53,832 nt of DNA, taken from assembly GCA_903861005.1 (NCBI GenBank), contig CAIOSP010000154.1, positions 1-53,832 on the forward strand, written 5' to 3'. The position numbers were made by a program, and so were the translations under genes. The DNA comes from an uncultured Pseudomonadota bacterium (GTDB lineage Bacteria; Myxococcota_A; UBA796; GCA-2862545). Below, piece by piece: positions 19,738 to 38,765 of this stretch (positions are counted from its first letter, which is position 1; every line of letters starts with the position of its first letter). The notes under the pieces were generated by a model. That model made no database searches. It worked only from the letters and a program-made list of their open reading frames with translations, and was not told where the DNA came from.

Positions 19738-21774
19738 ATGGTCGACGAGAGCCTCAAGCCGACCCGCCCCGAGGGGCCGTCGCGACGAAGTTGGAGACTG
19801 CGCGGTCTCTGGGCTTTCCTCGTGCACCCGTTCGCGCTCAGCGTGGTGCTCCTCACGGTCGTCGCGCAGACCACCGGCGCGCTGGAGCCGCTCGATCGCA
19901 TCGTCTGGCGGGCGATCCTCGCGTCCCGCGGTCCGCTCTCGCGTTCGCTTGCGCCCACCGTACTCGCGGTCGACTCCGCCACCCTGGATCGGCTGGGTCC
20001 GCCGCCATGGAGCCCCGAGACCTGGCTGACGGTGACGGACGCGCTGCACCGGCAGCACCTCGATCACGTCGTGCTCGCCGACCCGTGGACGCGGCTGATC
20101 GCGCCGGGTCCTGCTCCCACTCGCGTGCCGGCGGTGTCGCTCTCTGCCCCCACCATCACCTGGAACGGCCAGCACACCCCCACCCTCCCTGCGTCGGTGC
20201 GCGGTCTGGTCTCCATGCTCCCGTCGCGCCTGGACGTGCCCGATCTGGCGCGCGTGGAGAGCGTGCCGGTGGTGTCGGACGGCTTGCCGCACCTCGGCTG
20301 CGTCGCACCCGCACGCTGCCCCGCACGCGGCGCCATCGCCCTGCCCGAGGTCGACATCCCGGTGGTGTCGCTCTCCACGCTGCTCGACGCGCCGGATGGC
20401 TTCCTGACGATCGGCTCGCAGGGCGCGCTGCTGGGCCTCACGGCGCCTCCATTCTCGGACGGCGTCCGCACCGCCATCCACCCCGCCAGCCAGCCGTACG
20501 TGCTGGTCGAGGCCGCGTCGCTCGCCGCCGCGCATGGCGAGGTGTTCATCCAGGGGCTGCCGCCCGGGCCCGCCGCCGTGTGGCTGCTCGCGATCCACCT
20601 GATGGTCACGAGCGCGCTGCTCTCCCGCTCCTGGCGGCGCTGGATCGTGCTCGGACCGCTGGTCGGCGCCACGGCCGCGCTGGTCGCCTGGGACGCGTCC
20701 ATGCTGGAGGCGCCGCTCCTCGGCGGTGTGCTGGTGGGCGCCGCCGCCCCGCTCGGTCGCGCGGTAGCGGTGTCGTCGACCGCGCTGTCCACCGTACAGC
20801 GGCTTGGCCTGCTGATCGTCCGCGCATCGTCTCGCGCAGGCACGCTGCGTCGCCGGATCTCCTCCGCGGATGAGCTGCTGTCGGTGTGCGCCGACGTCAC
20901 CCGCGGCCACGCCGAGGGCGCCGACGTGGTGCTCCTCACCGGCAGCAGCCGCCGACGCGCGCTGCGCTTCCACGGCGGGTTCGGCCTGACCGGCGCCGAC
21001 GTGCCTGAGGAGACGCTCAAGGCACGCCACCGCGCCATCCGCGCCGCGTGGGACACCTGGCAGCCCGTGACCGCGACGGGCGTGCTGGCGGACCACGGTC
21101 GTGAGGTCCTCATCCTCCCGCTGGTGCAGGCCGGTCACGTCGTCGCGCTCTGGATCATCGCGCCCAAGAACCGCGAGCCGGCGCCGTCAAGCCGCCGCAT
21201 GGCGCCGATCGCGCGCTGGATCGGCGAGCGCCTGGCGCTGCCCCAGGTGTCCGGCGCCCCCAGCCGCTTGGCCGACGTGATGCCCGCCGACCTCGACGAC
21301 GAGGCCCTCGACACCATGTTCGTCGCCGCGGACGAGGAGCGTCGCCGCTGGGTGCTCGCGGTGCGCGGCCTCGGTCACCCGGTGTTGGTCGCGGACACCA
21401 GCGGCGCCGTCAGCCTGATCAACCCGGAGATGGAGCGTCGCCTGGACGCCGCGGGGCTGCCTCGCGCGCGTTCGGTACGCGAGATCGTGTTCCGCTTGGG
21501 CGGCGAGTCTGCGCTTCGCGGCCGTATGGCGTCACTCTTCGCCGACGGTCGCCCGCTGGTACTCCCTTGGCCCAACCGGCCCAACGCCCGCCTCGTGATC
21601 CGTCCGATCGGAGGCGGCTCAAGCGCGATGGGAGACGAGCCGATACTCGGCTTCCTGGGTTGGATCGAAGAGCGGTACGTCTCCGCTTTCAGCGTCGACG
21701 ACACAGGGCTGATCCCAGAGGATCTACTCGACCCCGGCACCGACGACGAGACGCAGAAGGTGGACGCCTCCTAG
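19738..21774 (+). CDS. CHASE2-type membrane sensor with GAF- and PAS-like domains, no output domain
   Basis: The 678-residue protein has a membrane helix at about 29-46, an extracytoplasmic region (47-280) that starts like CHASE2 (LEPLDRIVWRAILASRG, then TVLAVDSATLDRLGPPPW), and three closely spaced membrane helices (about 281-350), the usual CHASE2 arrangement. Inside the cell follow a GAF-like region (385-500) and a PAS-like region (548-650, HPVLVADTSGAVSLINPEM). No kinase, cyclase, GGDEF or DNA-binding domain is visible, so it should signal by contact with a partner. It is the first gene of the operon, 3 bases before the PgsC-like gene, which suggests control of polymer synthesis or export. 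CHASE2 is my reading from pattern, not a search. Confidence 0.75.
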   Translation: MVDESLKPTRPEGPSRRSWRLRGLWAFLVHPFALSVVLLTVVAQTTGALEPLDRIVWRAILASRGPLSRSLAPTVLAVDSATLDRLGPPPWSPETWLTVTDALHRQHLDHVVLADPWTRLIAPGPAPTRVPAVSLSAPTITWNGQHTPTLPASVRGLVSMLPSRLDVPDLARVESVPVVSDGLPHLGCVAPARCPARGAIALPEVDIPVVSLSTLLDAPDGFLTIGSQGALLGLTAPPFSDGVRTAIHPASQPYVLVEAASLAAAHGEVFIQGLPPGPAAVWLLAIHLMVTSALLSRSWRRWIVLGPLVGATAALVAWDASMLEAPLLGGVLVGAAAPLGRAVAVSSTALSTVQRLGLLIVRASSRAGTLRRRISSADELLSVCADVTRGHAEGADVVLLTGSSRRRALRFHGGFGLTGADVPEETLKARHRAIRAAWDTWQPVTATGVLADHGREVLILPLVQAGHVVALWIIAPKNREPAPSSRRMAPIARWIGERLALPQVSGAPSRLADVMPADLDDEALDTMFVAADEERRRWVLAVRGLGHPVLVADTSGAVSLINPEMERRLDAAGLPRARSVREIVFRLGGESALRGRMASLFADGRPLVLPWPNRPNARLVIRPIGGGSSAMGDEPILGFLGWIEERYVSAFSVDDTGLIPEDLLDPGTDDETQKVDAS

Positions 21775-21777
21775 ACC

Positions 21778-24588
21778 ATGCTGCCCATCTTCCCCGAGCA
21801 CGTCCTCGACAACTCGCTTCACACGGCCATCCTCGTTGGTCTGATCGTGACGTGGGGCATGTTCGAGCTGTTCGGGTGGGTGTTCGCGGGCTTCGTGGTG
21901 TCCGGCTACCTCGCGGCCCTCGCCATGGTCTCGCCCACCACGCTCGTGGTGGTGCTCGTCGAGGCGATCCTCTGCTACGGCTTGGTGTGGATCCTGGCGA
22001 CCGGCCTGTCCGCCGCGGGGATCTACAGCCGCGTGTTCGGGCGCGAGCGCTTCATGCTCTTTGTCCTGGCGGCGATCCCCATCCGCCTGGCCGTGACCGG
22101 CGCCGCGATGCCGCGCCTGGAGTCGCGGCTGATCACCTGGGGCTGGGAGCCCGAGCAGCTGGGCCTCGGCCTGTTCGCGATCGGCGTCGTCCTGGTGCCG
22201 CTGACGGCCAACACCTTCTACAAGACCGGCTTGTCGCGCGGGCTGATCCAGCTCTCGGTCAACGCCACGCTCACCTGGGTCGTCATCAGCCAGGTCCTGG
22301 CGCGGCTCACCAACTTCGGCTTCGGTGACCTGACCCACACGTTCGACGCGATGGCGATCAACGCGTCCGAGTCGTCGCGCGTCGTGCTGGTCCTGGTGTG
22401 CACCGTGTTCATCGCCGCGCACAACAACCTCAAGTATGGCTGGGACTTCGGCGGCATCTTGGTGCCCGGCCTGCTGGCGATGCTGATCTTCACGCCCATG
22501 AAGATGCTGGCCACCGTCGCGGAGATGGTCATCCTCTTCTACGTGTACCGCACCGTGATGCGCATGCGCTTCGTCGCCTCGCTGGACCTGGAAGGCCCGC
22601 GCCGCATCGTGAGCATCTTCGCCGTCGCGTGGCTGTGGAAGTTCTGCATCGCCTGGATCGTGGACCTGTTGGACCTGCGCGTGTCCGTGTCGGACCTCTA
22701 CGGGTTCGGCTACCTGCTGACGAGCTTGGTGGTGTCGCGCTGCCTCAAGCAGGGCGGCGTCGTTCGCACCCTGGTCCCGCTGCTCGCGACCTCCTTCCAA
22801 GGGATTGCGCTCGCGCTGCCGTTGGCGGCCGCGCTGGCGTGGTGGCCGCACCCCGAGGACGCCCAGGACGCGCCGCGCGAGGCCCCCGCGCAGATCGCGG
22901 CCGCTGTGCCCGCGATCGCCTCCGCGTCCGACACCTCCGCGAGCGACCCGCTCGGCGAGTGGAGCCCGTGGACCGCGGTCGGCACGGCCGACGGCCGCGT
23001 CACCACCCTCCAGCGCGAGGGCGGCACGGCGTGCACCATGCCCACGCCCGGCCCGGTCCACGGCGAGGACGACCTGATCCAGATCGACTGCGGCGGCGAC
23101 GGTCCGGTCCTCGTGGTCAGCTCCCCGCTCGGCGACCCGGACTCCGCGTGGATCGTCGGCTGGATGGCGACGCACGGGCGCCCCTCCACCGTGCTCCTCG
23201 CGCGCGTCGACCCGTCCCGGCACCCCACGCGGCAGACCAAGGCGCCCGAGGTCGAGCGCGCCGTCGTCCGCGCCGCGATCGCCGCCGCAGGAGATCGCCC
23301 GATCCTCGTCGTTCGAACTGAGGAGCGCGCGACCGGCACGCGGCTGCACCTGCGCGACGCCACGGACGTGGATACGCTCGTCAACAGCCTCGGACTGAGT
23401 CTGGTCACGCTCGACACCGGCCCTCTGCCTGTCGGCGCCGACGCGATCTGGTCCGAGCTCCGCCCCAGCGACGGCGTGATCGTCACCTCGCGCGACCTCG
23501 TACCCCCAGGCGCGCCGGCCCCCGTCCTGCCCCTCGACGACGCCGTGGACGCCCCCGTCACCGCCGCGCCCGTTGAGCCCGATTTGCTCGTCGACACCGT
23601 GCTGCCCGCGGTAGTCCGCGCGCTGGAGGCCGGCGCGACAGGACCGTCCCCAGCCTGGCTGCACCACTTCGCCGCGTTGGTCGGCGCCGAGGTGCGCGAC
23701 AGCGTCGACCCCGAGACCGGAGCGCCGCTGTGGGTGCTCGTGCGCCGGGCCGACGGCGCCGACGCGGTCGACCGCTGGATCTTCCGTCCCGGCGGCGCGC
23801 CCTGGCTGGTCGCGACCGGCGCTGCCTGGCGCTGGCCCGGCGTGGAGGACTTGGCGCTCCACCACGGGCTCGCGCTGCGCGCTCGCGTCACCTGGATCGG
23901 CGCGTACCCGCCGCACGCTCAGGTGCGCGTCCGCCTGCTGGGCGACCCTCGCCGCGCCTTCCTCGATCGCATGATGCGCGCCCTGCTCCGGCCGACCGAA
24001 AGCTGGCGAGCCCAGGATCTGACCGCGCCGCCCACGCGCCTGCTGCTGCTCGAGACGGCCGCGGGAGACGGCGGCCCGGTGCGCCTGTCGCGCGGCGACG
24101 AGGGCAACGCCGCGGACGTGGACGCGCCGCTCGACGCGTCCGTGCTGGACGCCTTCTCGCCGTGGCCGGGCACGCGCGACGTGGTCCCAGGCAGCCTGGA
24201 GGCCTCCTGGCAGCCGACGCTGCCCTACGCGGTGAACTACGCGACGTCGATGAACCCGAACGGCGTGGTGATCGCGTGGTACCCGACCGACCTCCTCCGC
24301 GAGACGCCCCGGGCCCCTGAGCGCGCCGCGCGGCTGGGTTGGTACCAGGCGCACCGCGTGCCGGTGCTGCCAGGCCAGGATCCAAACAGCACGCCGGGCA
24401 GCGGCGGGCTGTGCGACCAAGCGCTCGCCCACGCCAACTCCCCGACCGATCTGTCGCTCGCGGCGGCGCGCGCGGGTGGCGTGCAGATCACCGTGCTCGC
24501 CACGCCGCTGCGCCTTGGCGTCCTCGCCAACCGCGGACTCGATCACTGCGCGGCGTGGGCGGCCGAGACCGCGCCGGTGTCGCCATGA
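21778..24588 (+). CDS. Tandem PgsC/CapC-like membrane protein with large C-terminal domain
   Basis: The 936-residue protein starts with about 350 hydrophobic residues. Residues 25-180 match a whole CapC: FAGFVVSGYLAALAMVSP, then GRERFMLFVLAA, then FAIGVVLVPLTANTFYKTG. Residues 205-352 repeat the pattern: FGGILVPGLLAMLIFTP, GPRRIVSIFAVA and a KQGG segment. CapC/PgsC, normally about 150 residues, is the membrane partner of the CapB ligase in poly-gamma-glutamate synthesis and export. After a Pro/Ala linker (355-395) comes a soluble domain of about 540 residues with no family I know, probably periplasmic. The stop overlaps the next gene (ATGA). The start is 3 bases after the sensor gene. Confidence 0.8.
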   Translation: MLPIFPEHVLDNSLHTAILVGLIVTWGMFELFGWVFAGFVVSGYLAALAMVSPTTLVVVLVEAILCYGLVWILATGLSAAGIYSRVFGRERFMLFVLAAIPIRLAVTGAAMPRLESRLITWGWEPEQLGLGLFAIGVVLVPLTANTFYKTGLSRGLIQLSVNATLTWVVISQVLARLTNFGFGDLTHTFDAMAINASESSRVVLVLVCTVFIAAHNNLKYGWDFGGILVPGLLAMLIFTPMKMLATVAEMVILFYVYRTVMRMRFVASLDLEGPRRIVSIFAVAWLWKFCIAWIVDLLDLRVSVSDLYGFGYLLTSLVVSRCLKQGGVVRTLVPLLATSFQGIALALPLAAALAWWPHPEDAQDAPREAPAQIAAAVPAIASASDTSASDPLGEWSPWTAVGTADGRVTTLQREGGTACTMPTPGPVHGEDDLIQIDCGGDGPVLVVSSPLGDPDSAWIVGWMATHGRPSTVLLARVDPSRHPTRQTKAPEVERAVVRAAIAAAGDRPILVVRTEERATGTRLHLRDATDVDTLVNSLGLSLVTLDTGPLPVGADAIWSELRPSDGVIVTSRDLVPPGAPAPVLPLDDAVDAPVTAAPVEPDLLVDTVLPAVVRALEAGATGPSPAWLHHFAALVGAEVRDSVDPETGAPLWVLVRRADGADAVDRWIFRPGGAPWLVATGAAWRWPGVEDLALHHGLALRARVTWIGAYPPHAQVRVRLLGDPRRAFLDRMMRALLRPTESWRAQDLTAPPTRLLLLETAAGDGGPVRLSRGDEGNAADVDAPLDASVLDAFSPWPGTRDVVPGSLEASWQPTLPYAVNYATSMNPNGVVIAWYPTDLLRETPRAPERAARLGWYQAHRVPVLPGQDPNSTPGSGGLCDQALAHANSPTDLSLAAARAGGVQITVLATPLRLGVLANRGLDHCAAWAAETAPVSP

Positions 24589-27110
24589 ACGTACGCGTCG
24601 ACGTGCTGGGGACGCTGGTATGGCTGGCCGTGGTGCTCGGCGTCGGGGCGCTCCTGTGGGTGCCACCGCCCTTCGAGTCGGACGACCGGCGTCCGCTCCA
24701 GACCTTCGTCGTGCGGCCCGACGCGCCGGTCGAATTTGTCCTCCCGCCCGCCACGCACCTGATCAAGCTGGTGACGATCGCCGAGGCCCCGTGCGGGCCC
24801 CAGGTCGACGCCACGCTCGACCAGGCCTACTCCGTCGACGTCAGCTGGCTCGACGCCAACGGCGCGCCGGTGAAGGTCGACCACCTCGACCTGGACAGCA
24901 GCGTCACCGTGTCCAACGACGAGGATGATGGCGGTGAGGTCGCGCTCCCGGTGCTCGCCCCGCGTACCACCCGCCTGGCCGTGCCCGACGAGGGCGGCGA
25001 CGTACGCACCGTTCGGGTCACCGTGCCGAAGGACGGCGCGGTCCGGGTCCGCATGTACCGTGCCGAGCCCGCGCCCTTGGGTAGGCCCGAGCTCGCGCTG
25101 CTCAAGACGAACGAGCGCGACGCGGCCTCTCTCGCGCACCAGATCGGCCTCGCGAGCTGGGACGAGGTGACGCTCGACGAGGCGCTGGCGCTGGCTGAGG
25201 TGCGCTGGCGAGGCCTCAACGCGGTGCGCGGCACGGTCTCCAAGGAGAACACCACCGTCACGCTGCTGCCGAACGCGCCGCTGCCCGAGTCGATCCGCCG
25301 CGCGACCGGCGTGGCGATCGAGCCGAGCCGCGCGGTCGCGTGGACGCTGAACGGCCCGATCGACGTCACCCTCGTGGGAGACGGCGACCTGGGCGGCCTC
25401 GCCCTGGACGCGATCACCGAGGACCTTGGCCGCGTGGACGTGCGCGCGGAGGTGGTCACTGCGCCCGAGTGGCGCGTAGGCGCTCGCGCGCTGCGCATCC
25501 GCACGGACTTCGCAGGCGAGACCACGCTGCACGTCCGCAACGACGGTCTGGAGCCCGTGCTCGGCGCGTTGGCGCTGCTCAACACCGACGCGCGCCCGGC
25601 GGTCCCCGCGGGTGTCGAGGCCTTCCCCGTCGCCTCGTTCCTGCGCGATCAGGCTGACCCCAACCTGCTCTCGGTCGCGCCGCCGCGCGCCGAGTACCAC
25701 TTCGGCCGAACGCGGCCGGAGCGCCCGATCCGGTTCGCGCTCCCCGCGGCGCCCTCGTCGGGCGTCGTCCGCGTCGCGCTCCGCGCTTTGTCGCCCACCG
25801 CACCCGTCGCCTCGCTCGACGTGGATCTGGTCGTGACCTACGCGGATCACGAGGCGGTGTTCCCGGTGCACGCCGACGCCACGTGGAGCGCCTACGAGCG
25901 CGTGCGACCTGACCCGGGCTCGCTCGACGTCGCCGTGGGCGAGGTCCGCGTCGCCGAGCCGATCGAGCGCTACCTGCCCGTGGGCGCCGGCGCGAACGCG
26001 ATCGAGATCCGCACCACCACCGGCTGGCCTGATCCGGCGGACGCCAAGGCCGTCGGCGTGCTGGTCAGCGCCGCGCTGCTCGGCCCCACGCGCGGCGCCG
26101 TGCCTGCGTCCGACCTCCTCGGCCGCACCACCGTTCGCTACGTGCGCGAGGGATTCAGCCGCTGGACGCCGCTCGACGCCAGCGTGGAGGGCACGCCCGG
26201 CCTGCCCGAGCCCACCTGGCTGCTCCGGGCGAACCCGCGCCGCGAGCTCACCGGCGAGAGCTGGGGCAGCGACGACGACGAGGGCGCTGATCTCACGCGC
26301 CACTACACCTTCCTGGACCCGGTGCGCTCAGCGGCGGGCCTGGCAGGCGAGTCTTGGCTCTTCCCACGGGTGCCCGGCGCGCCGAACGACGGCCTGGTCT
26401 GGTGCGGCTACGACGCGGGCGAGAGCGACGCCTCGCTGCCCTGGTCACCCGCCGCCACGATGCACCTGGACGGCACCCTGTCCGCGGTGGTGTGGGCCCC
26501 AGGCGCCGCGTCGCGCCCCACGCTCGGCGACACGTGGTCGCTCGAGGTCGACGGCGCCGCGTGGGCCACCCAGCGCTTCCAGAGCGGCGTCGCCGGCTTC
26601 AGTGGCCGACATGACCCAGCCTCCCGCGTGTCCTTCGTGGCCCCCGCCGGCGCGCGCGCGTGGCTCCGCGGCTTCCTGCGCGGCGCCGACTGCCCAGACT
26701 CGCGCTGGCAGCGCAGGCTCGTGATGCTCCAGCCCGGCGCGTCGATGACGTGGCGCGTGCACCGCGACGGCAGCCCGCAGCGCGTGCTGATCGGCGGCGC
26801 GGCCTCCAACCCCGCGCAGCTGTGGGTGTCGCTCACCTCACCCGCGCCCGATCACCTGCTGGACGCGTGGACCACGCGCGACCGCGTCGTGTCGCTGCCG
26901 CAGCTCGCCGCCACCGCCATCGCGCTGGAGTCGCCGTGGATGCGCGACACGGCCCTCGACTCCACGTCGATCACCCTGCACGACGATCTCGCGTCCGCGG
27001 TCGACGTGACGGTGAGCAACGTCGGAGCCGAAGCGGTGCGCGTGTTCCTTGGCGTCGAGGTGCTGGAAGCGCGTGAGCGCGATCGCGCGCCGCTGCGGAT
27101 GCCCCAATGA
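24585..27110 (+). CDS. Membrane-anchored, beta-rich periplasmic protein of the pgs-like operon
   Basis: The 841-residue protein has one N-terminal membrane helix (VLGTLVWLAVVLGVGALLWV, about 7-26) and no cleavage site, so it should stay anchored with the rest in the periplasm. The remainder is Val/Asp/Arg-rich and predicted mostly beta, with Ig-like stretches (RTVRVTVPKDGAVRVRMY) and four Cys in total. I recognise no family. The ATG overlaps the stop of the PgsC-like gene, and its own stop overlaps the next start (ATGA both times), so the four proteins are made together. A bridging role between the inner-membrane synthase and the outer-membrane protein is my inference. Confidence 0.8.
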   Translation: MNVRVDVLGTLVWLAVVLGVGALLWVPPPFESDDRRPLQTFVVRPDAPVEFVLPPATHLIKLVTIAEAPCGPQVDATLDQAYSVDVSWLDANGAPVKVDHLDLDSSVTVSNDEDDGGEVALPVLAPRTTRLAVPDEGGDVRTVRVTVPKDGAVRVRMYRAEPAPLGRPELALLKTNERDAASLAHQIGLASWDEVTLDEALALAEVRWRGLNAVRGTVSKENTTVTLLPNAPLPESIRRATGVAIEPSRAVAWTLNGPIDVTLVGDGDLGGLALDAITEDLGRVDVRAEVVTAPEWRVGARALRIRTDFAGETTLHVRNDGLEPVLGALALLNTDARPAVPAGVEAFPVASFLRDQADPNLLSVAPPRAEYHFGRTRPERPIRFALPAAPSSGVVRVALRALSPTAPVASLDVDLVVTYADHEAVFPVHADATWSAYERVRPDPGSLDVAVGEVRVAEPIERYLPVGAGANAIEIRTTTGWPDPADAKAVGVLVSAALLGPTRGAVPASDLLGRTTVRYVREGFSRWTPLDASVEGTPGLPEPTWLLRANPRRELTGESWGSDDDEGADLTRHYTFLDPVRSAAGLAGESWLFPRVPGAPNDGLVWCGYDAGESDASLPWSPAATMHLDGTLSAVVWAPGAASRPTLGDTWSLEVDGAAWATQRFQSGVAGFSGRHDPASRVSFVAPAGARAWLRGFLRGADCPDSRWQRRLVMLQPGASMTWRVHRDGSPQRVLIGGAASNPAQLWVSLTSPAPDHLLDAWTTRDRVVSLPQLAATAIALESPWMRDTALDSTSITLHDDLASAVDVTVSNVGAEAVRVFLGVEVLEARERDRAPLRMPQ

Positions 27111-28015
27111 TCGCGTGGGCCATCAGCGCTGCGCTCGCCGCGGGGCCCGGTGAGGACGCCGCCGCCCTCGACGCGTGGCTCGCGCGTCGCCACCGTGACG
27201 TGGTGTCGGACAGCGCCTGGGTCAGCCCGACCGAGCCCGAGCGCGCCGCCTCCGCCGTGGGAGCGGCTGCGTTGATCGCGGCCCTGCCCGCCTGTGATTC
27301 CGCCGAGATCGCCCGCGCCTCCGCCCTGCTCGCGGCCGCCGGATGGGGCGTGGACGCGGCGCCCGACGGCGGCGGCGGCGTGGTGCTCGTGGTGACTGAG
27401 CACACGCCCCACGGCGGCGGCATGAGCGCATGGCGCTGCGGTGACGCGCCCGAGATCGTCGCCTTGGCCCCGCACGCCGACTACGACCTCGGCACCGACG
27501 ACATCGTCCGGCACGCGTTCACCGACGGTCACCTGCGCGGCGTGATGTGGAGCACCACGCGCCGCTACCGCGCGCTGCCCGGCGAGCAGGAGGTCGATCC
27601 GATCCACCCTGGAGACGTCGCGCATCAAGCGGCCAGCTTGTTCCAGACGTGGTCGCTCGCGGCGCTTGTCGCCAACCCGCGCGCGCGCCTCGTCCAGATC
27701 CACGGCTTCGCGGCGGGGACCGTCGACGCCGACGCGGTGATCTCGTCGGGTCAGGTCGACCACCCGCCCATCCCCCTGCTCAAGCCGACCGCCGCGGTCC
27801 TCGGTCCGGAGGCCCCCAAGATCAAGCTGTTCGGGATCGACGCCGACGTGCTCGGCGCCACGACGAACGTCACGTCGCGCGCCGTCGATGGGCTCGACAG
27901 CCCCCGGTTCGTGCACATCGATTTGTCCCCGCGCGCCCGCGCGCTGCTGACTGACGACCCCGCGCGCGCCACGCGCCTGCTGCTCGCGCTCGGAGGGACC
28001 CCATGGTCCTTCTGA
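27107..28015 (+). CDS. Possible periplasmic metallohydrolase of the pgs-like operon
   Basis: The 302-residue protein begins MIAWAISAALAAGPGEDA, a short signal-like stretch. The core has conserved-looking polar motifs: TEHTPHGGGMSAW, ALAPHADYDLGTDDI, STTRRY, HPGDVAHQ and QIHGF. The many His/Asp/Glu next to Gly and the order PH...D..T, R..., QxHGF recall zinc-dependent hydrolases such as poly-gamma-glutamate hydrolase (PghP) or N-formylglutamate amidohydrolase, but no match is certain. In this context it could trim or release a gamma-glutamyl polymer, the job done by CapD or PgsS elsewhere. The start overlaps the previous stop by ATGA and the stop lies 13 bases inside the next gene. Confidence 0.7.
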   Translation: MIAWAISAALAAGPGEDAAALDAWLARRHRDVVSDSAWVSPTEPERAASAVGAAALIAALPACDSAEIARASALLAAAGWGVDAAPDGGGGVVLVVTEHTPHGGGMSAWRCGDAPEIVALAPHADYDLGTDDIVRHAFTDGHLRGVMWSTTRRYRALPGEQEVDPIHPGDVAHQAASLFQTWSLAALVANPRARLVQIHGFAAGTVDADAVISSGQVDHPPIPLLKPTAAVLGPEAPKIKLFGIDADVLGATTNVTSRAVDGLDSPRFVHIDLSPRARALLTDDPARATRLLLALGGTPWSF

Positions 28016-31000
28016 TGCTCGCCGCGGCCCTGGGCGCTGAGCCCGCGTTTGAGGCGAGCTGGGAGCGCGCCGAGGTGATCGGCGACAGCGTGAGCGCCGA
28101 CGGCGCAACCTGGCGCATCGTCGACGTCGGCGGACACCGCATGGTGCGGGCGCGCTGCGAGGACACGCTGACCCCGCCCGCGGTGCAAGCGCTCGTCGAC
28201 GACGGCGACGCGGCGATCCGTGTGGTCAGCGCGTGGCCCGCACCCACCCAGGACGGCAACGCCTGGCTCTACGATCTGACCGGCAGCGACGCGCGCTGGT
28301 GGGCGTTTCAGGGCGACTGCACGTTCGAGCGACGCAGCGTGTCGACCGCGCCGACCTGGCTCGACCGCGCGGAGCGCCTCGCCGACGATCCCGCCGATCT
28401 CCGCGCGCGCCTGATCGCCTCCGCCGCGATGACTGAGCGCGTCGACCTGCGCGACCTGCTCGCCACCGCGCCCGACGACGCGACGTGGTGGTCGACCTGG
28501 GTCGCGGTGCGGCCGATCGGCGGCCTGGTGTCCACGCGCACGCTGCTGCGAACGCACGCGACGCCGCGCAGCCGCGATCCCGATGTCGACGCGCCGTGGC
28601 CTCTCCGTGTCGACGACGCGTTGAAGATCCACGGCCCTGCACGAGTGCACCTCGTCGCGCGCTCCACCAACCCCGGCCTCGATCTGTGCGCGCTCGTGGA
28701 CGACGTCGAGGTCTGCCAGGGCACGCGCGTCGACCGTGCGCCTGTGGTGCTGGCCGATGGCGCGCTGCGCTTCACCACGCTGGATTGCGCGCAGAGCCCC
28801 GAGTCCTGCCTCGACGGCGCAGCGCTCTCGGCCCCTGTCCGCTGGGAGGTCTACGTCCCGCGCGGGGTGCACACGCTGCGCTTCGATCAAGACGTCACGC
28901 TCGGCGGCCGCGTCGCCGACCCGCCGTCCATGCGCACCGTCGCGCCGCTCCCCACCACCGTGACGCTGATCTCCGCGAGTGGCGCCGATCCGCAGACGCT
29001 CTCCCGCGTGCTGGCCGTGCCCGATCGAACGGACGCGCCCGAGCGGCTGCTCTTTGGTCCGGCGCAGCGCGCGCCCGTCCGCGCGAATGAGGCGAGCTGG
29101 ATCGCGCCCGGCGACTTTGCCGCCACTGGCCTCGCGCGCTGGTGGGACGAGGACGGCACCGGGCAGCTGCGCGTGCTCGCCGGCGACGGCACCTGCCGCC
29201 TGGGCTTCGACGACGACACGGCGTGGGTGTCGCGCGGCGTGTCCGGCCTGATGCGCCTGGAGCGCTTCGGCGACAACCCAAGCTGGACCGCGGGCCCCCA
29301 GGTCGAGGGCTGCGACGTGCGCCTGCGCGTGGTCGGCACGTTCGCCGACGAGACCATCCCCCGCGAGGTGGCGCGCCCGTTCACCGTGGTCCACGGCGAG
29401 CAGTGGACGGGCTTTGGTTGGCCTTCGACACCGGACGACGCGTCCACGCTGCGGATGGCGTTCGCGTCTGGCGCTCCGCTGGTCGCGCGCGTGAAGACCA
29501 CCGACGGCGTCGATCACCGCTGGACGCTCAGCGCCGACGACGCCACCGGCGGCTGGGCCAGCGCCGACGGCCGCGAGCGCGTGCACACCATCGACCTGCC
29601 GCTCGACGGCGTGCGCGGTCCGTTCACCGTGTGGCTCTCGCGGGAGGCCTACGTCAGCGCGTCCGCGCCTGGCACACCCGCCGACGCCGCGCCGCCTGCG
29701 CAGGCCGGATCCGACGATCCGACCGACGCCCGCGCGCTCGCCGCGGCGGTGCGCGACGCCCCGGACGACGCGGCCCGCGCGAAGGCGCTGGACGCGCTCG
29801 CCGCGCGCTGGGCCAGCGTGGGCGACGTCCGCGCCGCCGCGCGGGACCGTGTGCTCGCGGATCCGCTTGGCCCGGGAGACCCCGCGCTGCAGCGGGCGCT
29901 GATCGACGACATCCTCGGCGCGTGGGTGGAGGGCGCACGCTGGGTGCCGCTCGGTGCGTCGTGGGTGCCCGTGGTGAAGGGCCTCGACGAGGCGGCCCTG
30001 GAGCAGGCCGCGGTGGACGCGCAGCGCGGTGACGCCGTGGCCGTGGCCCGCGCGCTCGCGACACACCCCGAGGCCATCCCATGGTGGATCCTGGCGGCGC
30101 GCACCCAGATCCTCGACGAGCCGACCGCGCTGCGCGCGTGGCTCGCGACCTCCGCCACGCCGACGCCGTCTGCGGCCACCGGCCCCGTGCGCGCATGGAG
30201 CCGTTGGGTGGGCGTGCGCAGCGCGCGCGGCACGGAAGGATGGCGCGCCCCGTGGCCGACCGCCCCGTCGACGGACACCGATCCCTTCCCCGACGCGTGG
30301 CCCGACGGAGCGCGCGCGCGCGTGGGCGATGGCTGGGTCGTCCGCCTGCCACCCAACGGACGCGGCGCGACGCTGCCGGTGCGGTGCCGCGCCCTGAGCG
30401 CGCACGCGGCCGAGGTCGGCTGCACCTTCACCCGTGTGTCGGCGACCGGCGTCGAGCTGGCGCGGTGGGAGGTCGCCCCGTGGGGCGGCGTCGTCACGCT
30501 CACCCTCGATCCCTCAGGCCTCGCCAGCTTCCTGCAGCTTGAGGACTCCGGCGACGCCTGGGCCGAGGTCCGCCTGCCCGCGCGCACCGGCTCCGACGCG
30601 GCGCTGCGTGACGTGCGGCGCGTCACCGACCGCGACGGCGCCACCCTGGATCTGCTCGGCCCCACCGGCCTCCGCGTCGACGCGTGGTCGCCCACCGAAG
30701 GCACCCTCACGATCGAGGCCCGCGACGCCAGCGGCGCGCGGATCGCGACCGACAGCGCCCCAATCGGCGCCACCCCGATCACGCGCATCCTCGCGGTCGA
30801 CCACGACGGCGTGGTTCAGGTGACCGTGCGCGCCCCCGTCGGCGCGATGCTGCGTATGGCCACCCGCGCCGCCACGCAGGCCAGCCTGGAGCCTCCGACC
30901 CACCGCGCGCTCATCGCCGCGCTGCGCAAGCCATGGACGGCGCCGCTGCCCACGGAGGACGAGGGTCGCCTGCCATCACGCCTCGCGACCGTGCTCCCGC

Positions 31001-31905
31001 AGCGCGATGGCCGCCCGATCAGCGTGCTCACGTCGCTGCGCGGCGGCGTCACCCACGCGACCGACACCACCATCCGCGTCATCCCCTCCGTGACCGCGCT
31101 CAGCCGCCCCACCGCCAAGCCCTGGTGGTTCAGCGCCGGGATGGCCGTGTACGGCGAGTCCCGCACCGCGCCGGTGATCGAGGGCCACGTCTCCGCCGAG
31201 GGCTGGATGATCCGTCAGCCCCTGCGCGGCTGGGTGCGCATCGACGGCAACGTGCGCGGCGCCACCGACCCCGAGGAGCCGGCGGCGCTGCGGGGCTTGG
31301 TCGAGTTTGGCGGCGTCTGGCGTCCGCGCAGCGTCGTCGAGGCGCGCCTGTCGATCGCCGCGCTCGGCGCCGTGGTGATGGGCGAGTGGCCATCCCCCGC
31401 CGCGGACACCACGTCGAGCGTGCTCTGGTCCGACTACCGCCACAGCCACCGACTGGGCGTCGACACCCGCGCGGAGCTTCGCGTGTTCCCCTCGCCGTGG
31501 GTGCTCACGCGCCTGTGGGGCGATGCTCGGACCAACCGTCCCGGCGATTTGGCCATGTTCGACAGCCTCTCCACCGGCCTCGACGCGCGCTTCTCCATTC
31601 CCGGCGCGCGGTTCCTCGTGGGCGTCGCCGTCGAGCACAAGCCCGCCGATCTGGACCGCGACACGCCGTGGACCTCACCTGTCGCACAGCTCACGGTCGA
31701 CGGCATGCTGTGGGGCGGGCCGCGGCTGGGCGTCATGCTCGGCAGCCGCGTCAGCTACGTCGTGGCCGACCGACGCGTGGCCGCGGAACTCACGCTGAGC
31801 GTGCTGTGGTCGGGCCGACCCGCGCTGCGCGACCTGCCGCCGAGCGCCATGGACGCGCGTCAGGCGCTAGATTGGAACGAGCCGGGGCGGTACATCACCC
31901 CTTGA
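28003..31905 (+). CDS. Large exported protein with C-terminal outer-membrane beta-barrel
   Basis: The 1300-residue protein has a signal peptide (MVLLMLAAALGAEP). Residues 20-560 are beta-rich, about 560-730 is a helical, Ala-rich TPR-like segment, 770-1010 is beta again, and 1040-1275 shows alternating amphipathic strands rich in Trp, Tyr and Arg (KPWWFSAGMAVYGES, GWVRIDGNVRG, RVAAELTLSVLW), as in an outer-membrane barrel of about 12-16 strands. A tail ending RYITP follows, not the usual terminal Phe. GGAGGG lies 5 bases before the ATG at 28003; a second ATG at 28015 is possible. As last gene of the coupled block it is a good candidate for the outer-membrane exit of the polymer. Confidence 0.78.
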   Translation: MVLLMLAAALGAEPAFEASWERAEVIGDSVSADGATWRIVDVGGHRMVRARCEDTLTPPAVQALVDDGDAAIRVVSAWPAPTQDGNAWLYDLTGSDARWWAFQGDCTFERRSVSTAPTWLDRAERLADDPADLRARLIASAAMTERVDLRDLLATAPDDATWWSTWVAVRPIGGLVSTRTLLRTHATPRSRDPDVDAPWPLRVDDALKIHGPARVHLVARSTNPGLDLCALVDDVEVCQGTRVDRAPVVLADGALRFTTLDCAQSPESCLDGAALSAPVRWEVYVPRGVHTLRFDQDVTLGGRVADPPSMRTVAPLPTTVTLISASGADPQTLSRVLAVPDRTDAPERLLFGPAQRAPVRANEASWIAPGDFAATGLARWWDEDGTGQLRVLAGDGTCRLGFDDDTAWVSRGVSGLMRLERFGDNPSWTAGPQVEGCDVRLRVVGTFADETIPREVARPFTVVHGEQWTGFGWPSTPDDASTLRMAFASGAPLVARVKTTDGVDHRWTLSADDATGGWASADGRERVHTIDLPLDGVRGPFTVWLSREAYVSASAPGTPADAAPPAQAGSDDPTDARALAAAVRDAPDDAARAKALDALAARWASVGDVRAAARDRVLADPLGPGDPALQRALIDDILGAWVEGARWVPLGASWVPVVKGLDEAALEQAAVDAQRGDAVAVARALATHPEAIPWWILAARTQILDEPTALRAWLATSATPTPSAATGPVRAWSRWVGVRSARGTEGWRAPWPTAPSTDTDPFPDAWPDGARARVGDGWVVRLPPNGRGATLPVRCRALSAHAAEVGCTFTRVSATGVELARWEVAPWGGVVTLTLDPSGLASFLQLEDSGDAWAEVRLPARTGSDAALRDVRRVTDRDGATLDLLGPTGLRVDAWSPTEGTLTIEARDASGARIATDSAPIGATPITRILAVDHDGVVQVTVRAPVGAMLRMATRAATQASLEPPTHRALIAALRKPWTAPLPTEDEGRLPSRLATVLPQRDGRPISVLTSLRGGVTHATDTTIRVIPSVTALSRPTAKPWWFSAGMAVYGESRTAPVIEGHVSAEGWMIRQPLRGWVRIDGNVRGATDPEEPAALRGLVEFGGVWRPRSVVEARLSIAALGAVVMGEWPSPAADTTSSVLWSDYRHSHRLGVDTRAELRVFPSPWVLTRLWGDARTNRPGDLAMFDSLSTGLDARFSIPGARFLVGVAVEHKPADLDRDTPWTSPVAQLTVDGMLWGGPRLGVMLGSRVSYVVADRRVAAELTLSVLWSGRPALRDLPPSAMDARQALDWNEPGRYITP

Positions 31906-31937
31906 GGCCGCCGACGCGTGCGACCCAGGATGCTGCC

Positions 31938-33464
31938 GTGCGATCGATCCACGCCCTGACCGCGCTGCTGCTCACCGCCTGTAGGACCGGGGAGCCCGAT
32001 CAGGCGTGCCCGACCCCTGACATGACCGACGGGTCCCCGCGCCCGCTGTGGCACTTCACGCCTCCGGACGGCTGGATGAATGATCCGGCGGGTCTGGTCT
32101 GGCTGGACGACACGTTCCACCTGTTCTATCAGCGGGACCCGCACGACGTGTTCGTCGCCGACACCCGCTGGGGCCACGCCACCAGCCACGACCTCCTTGG
32201 CTGGGGAGACCAACCTGAGGCGCTCGTCGCAGACCCCGTGCTCGGCGTGCCGTTCACCGGGAGCGCGGTGGTGGATGACTCCGGCCAGCTGTGCGCGCCG
32301 GGAAAGGACTGCCTCGTCCTGATCTTCACGCACGCGTTGGGTGAGGACGGCGCGCAGAAGCAGAGCGTCGCGTGGAGCGAGGACAGCGGCCAGACCTTCA
32401 CGCCCTACCCCGGCAACCCGGTGCTCCCGCCGATCGACGCGGCGGACTTTCGCGATCCCAACGTGCGCTGGCACGCAGCGCTGTCGCGATGGGTGATGAC
32501 CGTGGGCGTGCGTGACGCCGTGCGCTTCTACACCTCTCAAGACCTGCGCACGTGGACCCAGACCGGCGCCTTCACGCCCACGGGGGTGACGCCAGGCGCC
32601 TATGAGTGCCCCGACCTGTTCAGCCTGCCCGCGCCCGACGGCGCCGCCCGCTGGGTGCTCAAGCTGGACGTGAACCCGGGCCTGCTTCAGGCCGGCCCCA
32701 GCCGCTATTGGGTCGGAGACTTCGACGGCGCAAGCTTCGTGCCCCAGACCGCGGCCGACGGGCTGTGGGCGGACGGACCCGATCTCTACGCCACTCAGAC
32801 CTTCGCGAACGTGCCAGACGGGCGGACGATCTGGCTCGGCTGGATGAGCGCGTGGTCCTACGCCAACGCGACGCCCACGCACGGCTACCGCGGACAGCAG
32901 AGCGCCCCCCGCGAGCTGTCGCTGGTCGACACCGCCGACGGCCTCCGCCTGGCCCAGCGGCCCGCGCGGGAGCTCGAACACGCCGTGGACCCCTGCCCGT
33001 TGATTGAGCGTGCGCGGGTGGAGGTAGACGATCTCACGCCGCTCCTCGACGACGCAGGCCCCGCCTACCTGCTCACCGCGACCGTGGCTCCCGGTCCGCA
33101 GGGCGTCGCCGGGTTTGAGCTGGTGCGTGGCGCGAACGAACGAACCGCCGTCGGGTTCGACGCCGCGCGCGGCGTGATCTTCCTCGACCGGAGCGCGTCT
33201 GGCGCGGTCGACTTCTCGAGCGCGTTCGCGGGTCGCTTTGAGCAACCGGTGCCCGGCGCGGGGGCGAGCGTATGGCTGACCGTGCTCGTCGATCGCACGT
33301 CGGTCGAGGTGTTCGCGGACGACGGCGTCGCCGTGATCTCAGCGTCGATCTACCCGACAGAGACCGTGCACGGGCTGGCCGCGTTTGCAGAGCGCGGCCC
33401 CGCGACCCTCCAGGACCTCCGCGTCCAACCGATGGGCCGCGCGCTGCGCGGATCGAGCCCTTGA
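31938..33464 (+). CDS. GH32 glycosidase lipoprotein (levanase/inulinase/invertase type)
   Basis: The 508-residue protein has a lipoprotein signal ending LLTAC (Cys15) and a complete GH32 enzyme: WMNDPAG with nucleophile Asp49, FRDPN with Asp173 as transition-state stabiliser, ECPDLF with acid/base Glu223, and the C-terminal beta-sandwich with TSVEVFADDGVAV. It hydrolyses beta-fructofuranosyl bonds in levan, inulin or sucrose at the cell surface. The GTG start at 31938 has AGGA 7 bases upstream. It follows the beta-barrel gene by 32 bases, so it may be the sixth gene of the operon. No fructose transporter or kinase is nearby. Confidence 0.93.
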   Translation: MRSIHALTALLLTACRTGEPDQACPTPDMTDGSPRPLWHFTPPDGWMNDPAGLVWLDDTFHLFYQRDPHDVFVADTRWGHATSHDLLGWGDQPEALVADPVLGVPFTGSAVVDDSGQLCAPGKDCLVLIFTHALGEDGAQKQSVAWSEDSGQTFTPYPGNPVLPPIDAADFRDPNVRWHAALSRWVMTVGVRDAVRFYTSQDLRTWTQTGAFTPTGVTPGAYECPDLFSLPAPDGAARWVLKLDVNPGLLQAGPSRYWVGDFDGASFVPQTAADGLWADGPDLYATQTFANVPDGRTIWLGWMSAWSYANATPTHGYRGQQSAPRELSLVDTADGLRLAQRPARELEHAVDPCPLIERARVEVDDLTPLLDDAGPAYLLTATVAPGPQGVAGFELVRGANERTAVGFDAARGVIFLDRSASGAVDFSSAFAGRFEQPVPGAGASVWLTVLVDRTSVEVFADDGVAVISASIYPTETVHGLAAFAERGPATLQDLRVQPMGRALRGSSP

Positions 33465-34806: not shown

Positions 34807-37800
34807 TCAATGCTTCTCCCCGTCCACCAGGTGCTTCGCCTCCTCGTTCGCACGCGCCAGCCCAACGCGGTGCAGCGACAGATCCCGGTAGAGTCGATCC
34901 GCCTTGCGCCGCCGCTGGACGCTGCCGACGAGATCCGCGGAGCGCACCAGCGCCAGCACGCGGTCGAACGCGGTCACGGTCTTGCCGGTGCCTGCGGCGG
35001 CCTTGGCCTGACACGCGGCCCGCGCGGACTCCACGGACGCCAACGTGGTCTCCAGATCTTCCTCGATCCCAAGACGGATCGCGCCGCCCGCCTCGCGCAC
35101 GTCGCGCAGGGTCTTGGCGGCAAGCTGGGCGTCGAACACCCCCCACCCTTCGTATGCGGTGAGCTTGCTGAGGGCGTCTCGCGCGGTGGCGGCGTCGTCA
35201 CCCTTCAACGTCGCGAGCCAGCCCATCACGCGCTCGGAGGACACCCAACGGTACACGTAATCCAGGCCCGTGCCCTTGATGTTCTCAGCGCCCAGCACCA
35301 GGCAGGTCGACGTGCGCGGGATCAGCTCCGCCATCTTCGCCATGATCTGATCGCCTGACATCGCGGTGTCCTCGAACGGGACGATCCGACGCGCCAGGAA
35401 GCGGACGCAGCCGTCCACCGCCTCGTCGATCGACCACGCCTCCTGGTCCTCCACCTGCTTGAGCCACAGGACCTCTTCGCGCCATGCGGCGGCGATCGGA
35501 TCCCACTCCGCGGCGTCCACGTCCGCGGGCCAGTGCTTCGCGATCACCGCGTCGGCCTGCTCGGCGCTCATCGGGTCCCGCCGCAGCCGTCGACGGAAGG
35601 TCGCGAACAGCTTGGCGCGTCCATCCGTGCCGTGGCCAATCTCGCGCAGCAGCGGGCCCAGCTCCTTCTGGAACGCCGTCTTGATCTGATCCGCCATGGG
35701 CACGACGTTGGTGCCGATGATCACGGTCCGCTCCGCGCTCACGTCCTCGGCGGTGATCTTGGCGAAGATCGCCTGCCGCGCCAGGCGGTCCGCGCGGTTG
35801 TTGAGCACGACCATCAGCCAGTCGGTCAGCCCGCTCTCGGGGTGGTAGTCGCTCAGGTTCGCGCGGTCCCAGTTGGACAGAAAGGACGCGCGGTCATTGG
35901 CCGAGTTGCCGCACAGAAACGACATCTGGGTGCCGCGCACGTCCAGCGGGCCGTAGCGCTTGTAGGCGCCCAGATCGACGAGCACGTGGTCCGCCATCGT
36001 GCGGATCGCCACATCACGGGCGATGCCAAGCCCCACGCCGACCGACACCACCAACGCGACGTTTCGATCGTAGGCCTGATCCGGGAAACGCAGCAGCAGG
36101 TCACGCGGGAGCAGATCCCAGTGCTCGGCGCGGCACGCGTGGAACGCGGTGCCGTTGGCGGCGGCCTTGCGCTGGACGACCGGCGTCATCTGCTGCTCCG
36201 AGGTGAACACCCGACCGCGTGTCGGCACGAACACGCTGATTACGTCCGCGACGTCGCGTCCGGACGGGCCCTGGATGTCCTCGTGATCCGGGTAGGTGTT
36301 CGTGATCGTGGTCAGGTCGTCGCGCATCCACTCATGCTGCAGCAGCTGCGTGTACATCGGGTTGAGCGCCATGCACTCGTAGAGCGTGACCTGCGCCTTC
36401 ATCGTCGACGCGATGCGCATGATGTTCTGCTGCTCGACGATCGTGGCCTTGTCGCGCGCCCGGTACAGGAAGACCTCAGTCGCCTCCACGCCCGGCATGC
36501 CGACGAGGATCATCGCCTCGCAGCCGGTCGACTTGCACAGCACGGTGTAGCCAAGCCCATGAAACATCGCGGCCTTGAGCCGCTCGACGCTCGACTTTCC
36601 GCGGGAGCCCCAGCCGCCGACGACCAGCGGAAGCGCGCGACGCCAGCGCCGCGTCTGCACCTCGCGCACCACCTTGGTGGCGCCCCACCACGCGAACGCG
36701 CCGATCGAGATCGCGGTCAGCTCCGCGGTGCTGTGCGCGTCGGACACACCCGCGCTCGACAGCCACGCGCCCAGCGCACCCAGCGACCCGACCCACGACG
36801 CGCGCCGGGTCACCGAGAAGCCGGCCTCGGCCAGCTTCTCGTCGTACACCGGCTCTGCCTCAGCGCGTGGGAGCGCACCCAGGCGTGTGCGCAGCCCTGC
36901 GAGCGCCACATAGCGACGGTTCGCGCGCCAGCCCGCCCACGCGCGCTCGGCCGTCAGCGTGATCACGCTGTCGGGCGTGCGCAGGTGGACCATGCGGTGC
37001 TTGGCGGCGACCAGCAGGTTCGCAGGCAGCGGCAGGTGCTCGTCCCAGGCCACGCTGACGGGCGTGGACACACGGCGCCCCGGCACCTCGGTCGCCACCA
37101 CCTCGGTCATGCGGCCCGACCAGGCGATCAGCTCACCGGGCGGCAGCTCGTCGACGGTGTGGGCGTGCGCCTGTCGCTTGTCGTTCCGCGGGTGGGCCGC
37201 CTCGTGCCAGATGCGCCACGGCGTGCGCACCTTCTGAAGGCCCAGGAACACGGTCCAGCCGCGCCGCGGCGCGCGCTCCAGCAGGTCGGCGGCGCCGCGC
37301 TCCCTGATTGGGCTGGCCGACAGGTCCAGCTCCTCGTGAGACAACACGAACAGCACGTCGAGCAGCGCGCGGCCCGTGAGCGACGCGACCGGGCCTGACG
37401 AGAAGCGCTTGCGCGCGCCCTCCGCGCTCGACGCGACCCACGCCTCCAGCGCGTCGAGCGCGGCCGACTCCGGACCACCCACGAGGCGCGCCCAGGCCTG
37501 AAGCACCAGCGCCAGGCGTCGGGTGTCCGCGTGCGCGCCATCGGCCGTCGACCAGCGCGCGAACACAGGCGCCCACGCGGCCGCAATGGCCTCCCCGTGC
37601 ACGCGCAGCCGCGCACGCCGAGCCCACGCGGCGTCCAGCAGCACCAGCACCACCTCACGCGCGGGGTTCGCGGTCAGCGCCGTCGCCAGAAGGTCCAGGC
37701 AGCCGGTGTCGCCGTCACAGGCGCGGTCCAGCAGCACGACCGCGCCCGCGCCCGCCACGCGCCAACCGTCCGGGTGCACGGCGTCGCCGAGGCGCTCCAC

Positions 37801-38697
37801 GACGCACGCCATGTCTTCGGGCTCACGGCTGCGGGCCAACGCGCACAGCCACGCCATGCGCACGTGCTCGCTCGGCTCGTGCGCGGCGATGAGGGCACGC
37901 AGCAGCTCCCACCGCTCCAGATCGGCGCACAGCCCCATCATGCGCGCGCGGGCGAACAGGTGATCGCGGTGCTTTCGCGTCGAGGCCGACGGCCACAGCG
38001 CCGCCTGCAGGGGGTCGCTTCGGGAGCTCACCCGCGCCGCCACCACCTTGAGCGCGGCCGCTTGGACCCACGGGTCATCGGCCGCGTCCAGCGCCACCTT
38101 CTCCAGCGCGACCCGCACCTCACCCACGCCCGGGTCCGGCAGCGTGGGGTGGACCAACGCGCCGAGGAGCTGGGCCGCCGCCACGCGGACCGGCCAGCGC
38201 GTGGTGCGATCGGTCAGCACATCCTTGGCGTTGCGACGCAGGGCCTCGCGGTGCGTGACGTCCACGCCGTCCAAGCGCAGCGTCGAGAGCGCCGCGGCCA
38301 GCAGCTCCCAGCGCTGATCCACCTCGGCGCGCTGCAGGACCATCCGGTCCTCGATCGCCGACGCGTCCAGCCAGCGCCCCAGCGCGGCCTGATCGGCGCG
38401 GCTCACCCCGCCCGACCCCGTGCGCCTGAGCAGGTCCTGGACCGCGCGGCCGGACTGCCCGGTCGCCGCCGCCGCGCGCAACACCGCCGCTTCTCCGTCG
38501 GTTCTCCGCCGGACGTGGCTTCGTTCCTGACCCAGCGCCACCAGCACCGCCGACATGCCGGTCGCGGGATCTGCGCCGGGGCCCGCCACCGCCGCCACAC
38601 GCGCCGCGATCTCCGCCAAGCGATCGCGGCCCGCCAGCCGGGCCAGCTCCGGGAGCGCGCCGTGCAGGATCTCGAGGACGTCAGCAGGTCGGGTCAT
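34807..38697 (-). CDS. PgsB/CapB-like poly-gamma-glutamate ligase with long N-terminal helical region
   Basis: The 1296-residue protein has a helical, HEAT-like region (about 1-620), two membrane helices (about 630-672), then a CapB-type Mur-ligase-related domain (690-1010): P-loop GGWGSRGKSSVERL near 692-705, KSTGCEAMI, ECMALNPMYTQLLQHEW, NTYPDHEDIQGP and NNRADR near 965. CapB/PgsB uses ATP to join glutamates through the gamma-carboxyl. The last 280 residues are helical and unfamiliar. CapB is normally about 400-460 residues, so this is a much enlarged form. ATG at 38697 is preferred to a TTG 30 bases upstream. It converges on the PgsC-like operon, 2.9 kb away, with the FKBP and lipoprotein genes between. 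Confidence 0.85.
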   Translation of the reverse strand: MTRPADVLEILHGALPELARLAGRDRLAEIAARVAAVAGPGADPATGMSAVLVALGQERSHVRRRTDGEAAVLRAAAATGQSGRAVQDLLRRTGSGGVSRADQAALGRWLDASAIEDRMVLQRAEVDQRWELLAAALSTLRLDGVDVTHREALRRNAKDVLTDRTTRWPVRVAAAQLLGALVHPTLPDPGVGEVRVALEKVALDAADDPWVQAAALKVVAARVSSRSDPLQAALWPSASTRKHRDHLFARARMMGLCADLERWELLRALIAAHEPSEHVRMAWLCALARSREPEDMACVVERLGDAVHPDGWRVAGAGAVVLLDRACDGDTGCLDLLATALTANPAREVVLVLLDAAWARRARLRVHGEAIAAAWAPVFARWSTADGAHADTRRLALVLQAWARLVGGPESAALDALEAWVASSAEGARKRFSSGPVASLTGRALLDVLFVLSHEELDLSASPIRERGAADLLERAPRRGWTVFLGLQKVRTPWRIWHEAAHPRNDKRQAHAHTVDELPPGELIAWSGRMTEVVATEVPGRRVSTPVSVAWDEHLPLPANLLVAAKHRMVHLRTPDSVITLTAERAWAGWRANRRYVALAGLRTRLGALPRAEAEPVYDEKLAEAGFSVTRRASWVGSLGALGAWLSSAGVSDAHSTAELTAISIGAFAWWGATKVVREVQTRRWRRALPLVVGGWGSRGKSSVERLKAAMFHGLGYTVLCKSTGCEAMILVGMPGVEATEVFLYRARDKATIVEQQNIMRIASTMKAQVTLYECMALNPMYTQLLQHEWMRDDLTTITNTYPDHEDIQGPSGRDVADVISVFVPTRGRVFTSEQQMTPVVQRKAAANGTAFHACRAEHWDLLPRDLLLRFPDQAYDRNVALVVSVGVGLGIARDVAIRTMADHVLVDLGAYKRYGPLDVRGTQMSFLCGNSANDRASFLSNWDRANLSDYHPESGLTDWLMVVLNNRADRLARQAIFAKITAEDVSAERTVIIGTNVVPMADQIKTAFQKELGPLLREIGHGTDGRAKLFATFRRRLRRDPMSAEQADAVIAKHWPADVDAAEWDPIAAAWREEVLWLKQVEDQEAWSIDEAVDGCVRFLARRIVPFEDTAMSGDQIMAKMAELIPRTSTCLVLGAENIKGTGLDYVYRWVSSERVMGWLATLKGDDAATARDALSKLTAYEGWGVFDAQLAAKTLRDVREAGGAIRLGIEEDLETTLASVESARAACQAKAAAGTGKTVTAFDRVLALVRSADLVGSVQRRRKADRLYRDLSLHRVGLARANEEAKHLVDGEKH

Positions 38698-38765
38698 ACG
38701 CCTTGTGGGTGCAAGAAGGCGGCGCAAGGATACACCACCCCGGCCCTTTTGTCCGGGAGCGCTTG

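Follow-up and report, generated by a model that had tools for sequence, protein, structure and literature searches.

The uncultured, myxobacteria-like bacterium examined here encodes a protein in which two CapC units follow one another on a single chain and are fused to two hydrolase-like domains, and the gene lies in the window (the whole stretch of DNA analysed, 53,832 nucleotides) in a cluster with a giant PgsB-like ligase and a predicted outer-membrane β-barrel. We think it probable that this double CapC is the inner-membrane exporter of a machine that spans two membranes and makes poly-gamma-glutamate or a polyamide much like it. A more specific reading, to which we give slightly better than even weight, is that of a dedicated diderm exporter of the poly-gamma-glutamate type, in which the catalytically dead domains fused to CapC hold the chain en route to the outer-membrane barrel. 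The genes and domains concerned are listed in Table 1.

Table 1. Positions of the cluster genes and their domains in the window (nucleotides; approximate residues in parentheses).
Feature	Position	Strand	Description
UP	19738..21774	+	Sensor-like membrane protein, 678 aa, about 4 TM; ends 3 bases before double CapC
Double-CapC fusion protein	21778-24588	+	ATG start, 936 aa; two PF14102 matches; 25-member alignment A1
CapC unit 1	21817..22308 (aa ~14-177)	+	VVSGYLA motif (family VVPGYLA), basic FGRERF loop, VLVPLTAN motif
CapC unit 2	22375..22842 (aa ~200-355)	+	GWDFGGILVPGLLA motif, basic loop with GPRR, GFGYLL motif
Domain C1	22999..23532 (aa ~408-585)	+	Fold of hydrolase type, modelled as similar to M17 aminopeptidase; weak relationship to C2
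Domain C2	23566..24516 (aa ~597-913)	+	HYD homologue with putative metal ligands lost
SCAF	24585..27110	+	One N-terminal TM, then ~780 aa presumed to be periplasmic; 4-base overlap with double CapC
HYD	27107..28015	+	Predicted metal-dependent hydrolase, ~300 aa, predicted exported; overlaps SCAF by 4 bases; alignment A2
OMP	28003..31905	+	1300 aa; N-terminal signal-like segment, C-terminal predicted barrel; family conserved in order
OMP β-barrel	31018..31809 (aa ~1006-1269)	+	14 predicted strands, AlphaFold model pLDDT 72.5
Giant PgsB-like ligase	34807..38727	-	At most 1306 aa, depending on an uncertain TTG start; ~640-aa N-terminal region, then Mur-ligase-type domain

The first-pass annotation had placed two tandem CapC units at residues 25-180 and 205-352, and the family model agrees, with the bounds given in Table 1. 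PF14102 (Caps_synth_CapC; curated family cut-off 27 bits) scores 109 bits in total on the 936-aa protein and matches it twice above that cut-off, at nt 21835-22239 (64.4 bits) and nt 22405-22755 (61.5 bits); the PgsC equivalog TIGR04011 likewise matched two stretches, at 67.6 bits against a cut-off of 96.45. The halves also align with each other: BLASTP paired 36 residues (E=7e-5), and the profiles of their respective homologues were matched with a probability of 96.5 (E=7.8e-10), where the best of 59 column shuffles of one side reached E=0.011 and a probability of 3.7. The duplication of CapC within one chain is real. Whereas CapC/PgsC is a stand-alone protein of one ~150-aa unit, two units and two further domains are joined here in 936 residues. 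No relative of the whole protein with a solved structure was found by sequence, and plasmid records gave no match.

A FastTree phylogeny (unrooted, and short at 160 columns) of 30 single CapC proteins and 36 sequences of each half resolved these into three pure clades with support values of 0.976, 0.982 and 1.0. One old duplication-fusion is therefore likely, with divergence of the halves afterwards as the simplest reading of the tree. First halves across the family carry VVPGYLA, FGRDRF and VLVPLxAN, and second halves GWDFGGILVPALLA, a GPR loop and GFGYLL; since these motifs have diverged, the halves are not interchangeable. The earlier suggestion of a pseudo-dimer in one chain thus stands as far as the duplicated units go, but with non-equivalent halves in two clades such a dimer would be asymmetric at best.

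The architecture, described as new in the first-pass annotation, belongs to a family that spans several phyla. CapC was matched in 64/284 genomes of the phylum, and in 25 of the 284 two matches fell in one frame of at least 765 aa (one of these genomes encodes two such genes); the other CapC-bearing genomes of the phylum have mainly the classic ~150-aa form. A scan of GTDB species genomes with the single sequence returned no locus, and a profile built from the alignment was needed to recover 109 related loci, 80 of which were kept. These come from Corallococcus, Myxococcus, Pyxidicoccus, Sorangium, Polyangium, Nannocystis, Plesiocystis, Enhygromyxa and Lujinxingia, from Marinibacterium profundimaris, and from MAGs of Planctomycetota, of Wallbacteria (one) and, in some cases, with a gammaproteobacterial label, the taxonomic labels of MAGs in this set being unreliable. 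M. profundimaris is an alphaproteobacterial isolate, and its locus (L151) carries the operon from UP to OMP, which suggests horizontal transfer.

The double CapC is accompanied by its own kind of ligase. The genome has one PgsB-like gene, which lies inside the window on the strand opposite to the operon, ~2.9 kb past OMP and beyond a gene for a probably secreted GH32 glycoside hydrolase (31896-33464). Its match to the PgsB equivalog TIGR04012 (35677-36672, minus strand) reaches 198 bits, below the cut-off of 222.7, and its P-loop, GGWGSRGKS at aa ~707, has the Mur-ligase-type GxRGKS form. The region that precedes this domain (aa ~1-640) has no family match and looks helical. Divergent PgsB of this form, scoring 175-221 bits in open frames of 936-3134 aa (~400 aa in Bacillus), is present in 24/25 double-CapC genomes, so that the mandatory pair of CapB and CapC is found in these as it is on one contig in the window; the exception, G147, is 83% complete and in 890 contigs. 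Among the 259 other genomes of the phylum it occurs only in G003, which has fragments of both PgsB (217 bits in a 755-aa frame) and CapC, the latter cut at the end of a contig that also carries HYD and UP. With G003 counted as neither and genomes treated as independent despite their kinship, the association has a Fisher p=5.6e-34. In the classic single-CapC systems of the phylum (L004-L033) CapC also adjoins PgsB, but there it is the ~150-aa form in a separate clade of the CapC tree, and its partner is a strong PgsB match above the curated cut-off. Two genomes (G058 and G214) have both systems. The CapC/PgsB family thus comprises two types, and in the genomes sampled the CapC and PgsB of one type go together.

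Because both PgsB and CapC score below their equivalog cut-offs, the polymer may differ from poly-gamma-glutamate. Homology to these two proteins speaks for amide ligation and a membrane step rather than for glutamate, and a different poly-amino acid or peptide-like product would agree with the low scores, which are as expected for a diverged substrate, and with the large additional N-terminal region of PgsB. Set against this are the G[ST]RGKS P-loop, kept in 29/29 giant PgsB proteins examined, and the CapA/PGA_cap homologue near several clusters, neither of which fixes the substrate. We regard a different polymer as unlikely, though deserving some weight, and retain poly-gamma-glutamate or a close relative as the probable product.

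What had been annotated as one C-terminal domain of 540 residues is indeed a region of about that length, but it consists of a linker and two tandem domains. In an AlphaFold model of the double CapC based on 25 homologues (mean pLDDT 77.2, pTM 0.71), helical membrane units extend to aa 355 and are followed by a poorly predicted linker (aa ~356-407) and two alpha/beta domains. Comparison of the separate double-CapC and HYD profiles by hhalign related C2 (aa ~597-845 in the alignment) to the HYD family (E=5e-17, prob 98.8) and C1 to C2 (E=3.6e-6, prob 87.5); the best shuffled controls gave E=0.35 and E=0.66, and reversed controls likewise gave nothing. Among PDB structures, C1 and C2 come nearest to the folds of N-formylglutamate amidohydrolase, succinylglutamate desuccinylase and the M14 and M17 peptidases; the Z scores, about 7-8, are middling and of the size that common arrangements reach with such models. 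The nearest fold to C2 in the VIA comparison was N-formylglutamate amidohydrolase (2odf, Z 8.2), a value usual for models that match nothing clearly.

HYD itself gave no usable match in Pfam or NCBIfam, nor did its profile match PDB sequences. Across the 58 proteins of its family H123, R153, D170 and H199 are invariant, D127 is kept in 57/58 and a Glu stands at 272 in 56/58. The resulting pattern (H123xxxD127, H199, E/D272) resembles that of M14 enzymes, and we take these residues to be putative metal ligands. The corresponding columns of C2 have largely lost them: among 79 double-CapC sequences, and with column matching that rests on a profile alignment of distant sequences, H123 (aa 682) is His in 7, D127 (aa 686) is Asp in 6 and Glu in 56, and H199 (aa 759) is His in 2 and Arg in 53. 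It follows that C2, the fused copy, is probably no longer a HYD-type enzyme. It had been considered that the fused domains might replace CapA, which we rejected: the genome has PF09587 matches of its own, on contigs C75 and C76, and CapA adjoins the cluster in several relatives. On C75 (32811-35038; L181:6936-11089) a second HYD paralogue, distant from the window, is immediately followed by a 760-aa CapA/PGA_cap lipoprotein-like gene.

In the window neighbouring genes from UP to OMP either overlap or have 3 bases between them, and so UP, double CapC, SCAF, HYD and OMP likely form one operon. Family profiles applied to 150-odd loci recovered the order UP-CapCx2-SCAF-HYD-OMP-PgsB(-CapA) from many families and from different phyla, although in some loci PgsB or UP is turned round; SCAF and OMP are divergent, and parts are not recognised in every locus. 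UP homologues lie upstream of the double CapC in many loci. The window copy matches CHASE2 and GAF weakly, below cut-off, and its homologues yield CHASE2 at 23.7 bits (L151) and a degenerate histidine-kinase similarity, with a PhoR-like match in L035. SCAF, which had no match in Pfam or NCBIfam, is kept as a family immediately downstream of the double CapC. In Corallococcus and relatives (L095-L107) the double CapC often has HYD on both sides, with a PgsB match upstream on the other strand. Elsewhere in the window, positions 13293-15821 encode an 842-aa protein that looks secreted and has four lamin-tail-domain stretches as well as linkers rich in Asp and Thr. Long antisense open reading frames across the region were taken as high-GC artefacts.

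OMP, too, had no usable match in Pfam or NCBIfam. Its middle part looks helical by eye, and its last 361 residues, folded from 19 homologues, are predicted to form 14 long antiparallel strands, an even number. Foldseek matched this barrel model to OmpG (E=3.9e-9), and VIA gave Z scores of 19.3 for OmpG, 18.5 for CymA, 15.5 for PelB and 14.9 for BcsC. Such likeness of a modelled fold to OmpG, PelB and BcsC is by itself no proof of polymer export; 14-strand barrels also act as plain porins. The barrel and the hydrolase could accordingly belong to another pathway, the double CapC serving a common type of capsule that lacks an outer-membrane exporter of its own, and it fits this that OMP goes unrecognised in a number of loci and that HYD also occurs without CapC, for example in G118 and on contig C75. 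Yet the order CapCx2-SCAF-HYD-OMP-PgsB is kept in distant families, the genes overlap in the window and in several relatives, and C2 is itself an HYD-type domain, and we consider two unconnected pathways improbable. The reading we prefer remains that of one machine spanning both membranes.

The periplasmic placement of the fused domains put forward in the first-pass annotation is favoured by several lines of evidence. Cysteines of the C-terminal region occur in co-occurring pairs of columns: 419 and 438 in the same five sequences, 464 and 469 in another five, 475 and 496 in four, and 907 and 911 in the same four, while three sequences have no cysteine in this region. The pairs are arranged clade by clade, and as the sequences of a clade are related they represent only a handful of independent events; the pairing suggests disulfides and hence the periplasm. 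Averaged over 26 homologues, charge is basic in the loops at 81-91, 148-155, 263-275 and 323-331 but acidic in the N-terminus and at 178-199 and 356-370, which by the positive-inside rule would fit an N-out to C-out course for each CapC unit. Many proteins of the HYD family, homologous to C2, look exported, having a signal-like or lipobox-like segment at the N-terminus (lipobox-like in 27/58). We infer a periplasmic location from this strong indirect evidence. Lysine content was set aside as a marker: the C-terminal region is very poor in lysine, but secreted and cytoplasmic proteins of the genome overlap in this respect. A cytoplasmic C-terminus acting on PgsB as scaffold or regulator would follow if the VPG segments were re-entrant, with four TMs per unit and the C-terminus on the side of the basic loops, as the half-helices permitted by the AlphaFold model would allow, but the disulfide-like, clade-by-clade cysteine pairs, the acidic tails and linker as opposed to four basic inner loops, and the export-type starts of many HYD homologues make it very unlikely.

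For the two-membrane machine we propose the following course, in which the polymer, the direction of flow, polymer binding and the parts played by SCAF, HYD and OMP are our interpretation. The giant PgsB would polymerise an amino acid in the cytoplasm at the expense of ATP, and the paired, asymmetric CapC units would serve as its membrane partner and as the path through the inner membrane. In the periplasm the two fused, ligand-less hydrolase-like domains and SCAF may receive or hold the polyanionic chain, HYD, which has kept its putative active-site residues, may trim or release it, and OMP would be the outer-membrane pore. The idea that the C-terminal region guides the chain through the periplasm had already been raised in the annotation; it draws on context only, namely a hydrolase-like region with putative ligands lost and a predicted outer-membrane barrel in the same operon.

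The core of the cluster is that of PgsBCA/CapBCADE of Bacillus, namely CapC (PF14102) with a PgsB-type ligase and often a CapA (PF09587) homologue nearby. It differs in having a doubled CapC joined to two pseudo-hydrolase domains, a much longer PgsB (frame of 1300-1700 aa against ~400) and, in addition, SCAF, HYD and the predicted outer-membrane barrel, and its hosts are diderm. Synthase-dependent exopolysaccharide exporters are often encoded with a periplasmic hydrolase, and the cluster shares with those of BcsC, PelB, AlgE and PgaA a large outer-membrane protein with a C-terminal barrel encoded with the synthase; no sequence relation to these was found, however, and the synthase here is a Mur-ligase-type amide ligase rather than a glycosyltransferase. 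In a capsule survey the presence of CapB and CapC is what defines a PGA system, CapA and CapE being accessory, and such systems are reported from most phyla, Planctomycetes included (PMC5542703); in Cloacimonadota an ordinary capB-capC-capA operon is described (PMC13082233). A paper on lipocone domains was discarded as a precedent, its "CapCone" domains not being CapC. In the open-access literature, judged mostly from titles and abstracts, we found neither the tandem CapC fusion nor its cluster described, which is weak evidence that they are new.

Poly-gamma-glutamate synthesis has been studied mainly in Gram-positive bacilli, where there is one membrane to cross; in diderm bacteria the polymer would also have to pass the periplasm and the outer membrane. 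The cluster offers a concrete parts list for such a route in culturable bacteria, among them Corallococcus, Pyxidicoccus, Nannocystis and Marinibacterium. It also appears to be a case in which a domain of an enzyme type, having lost its putative active site, has been reused as a fixed part of an exporter.
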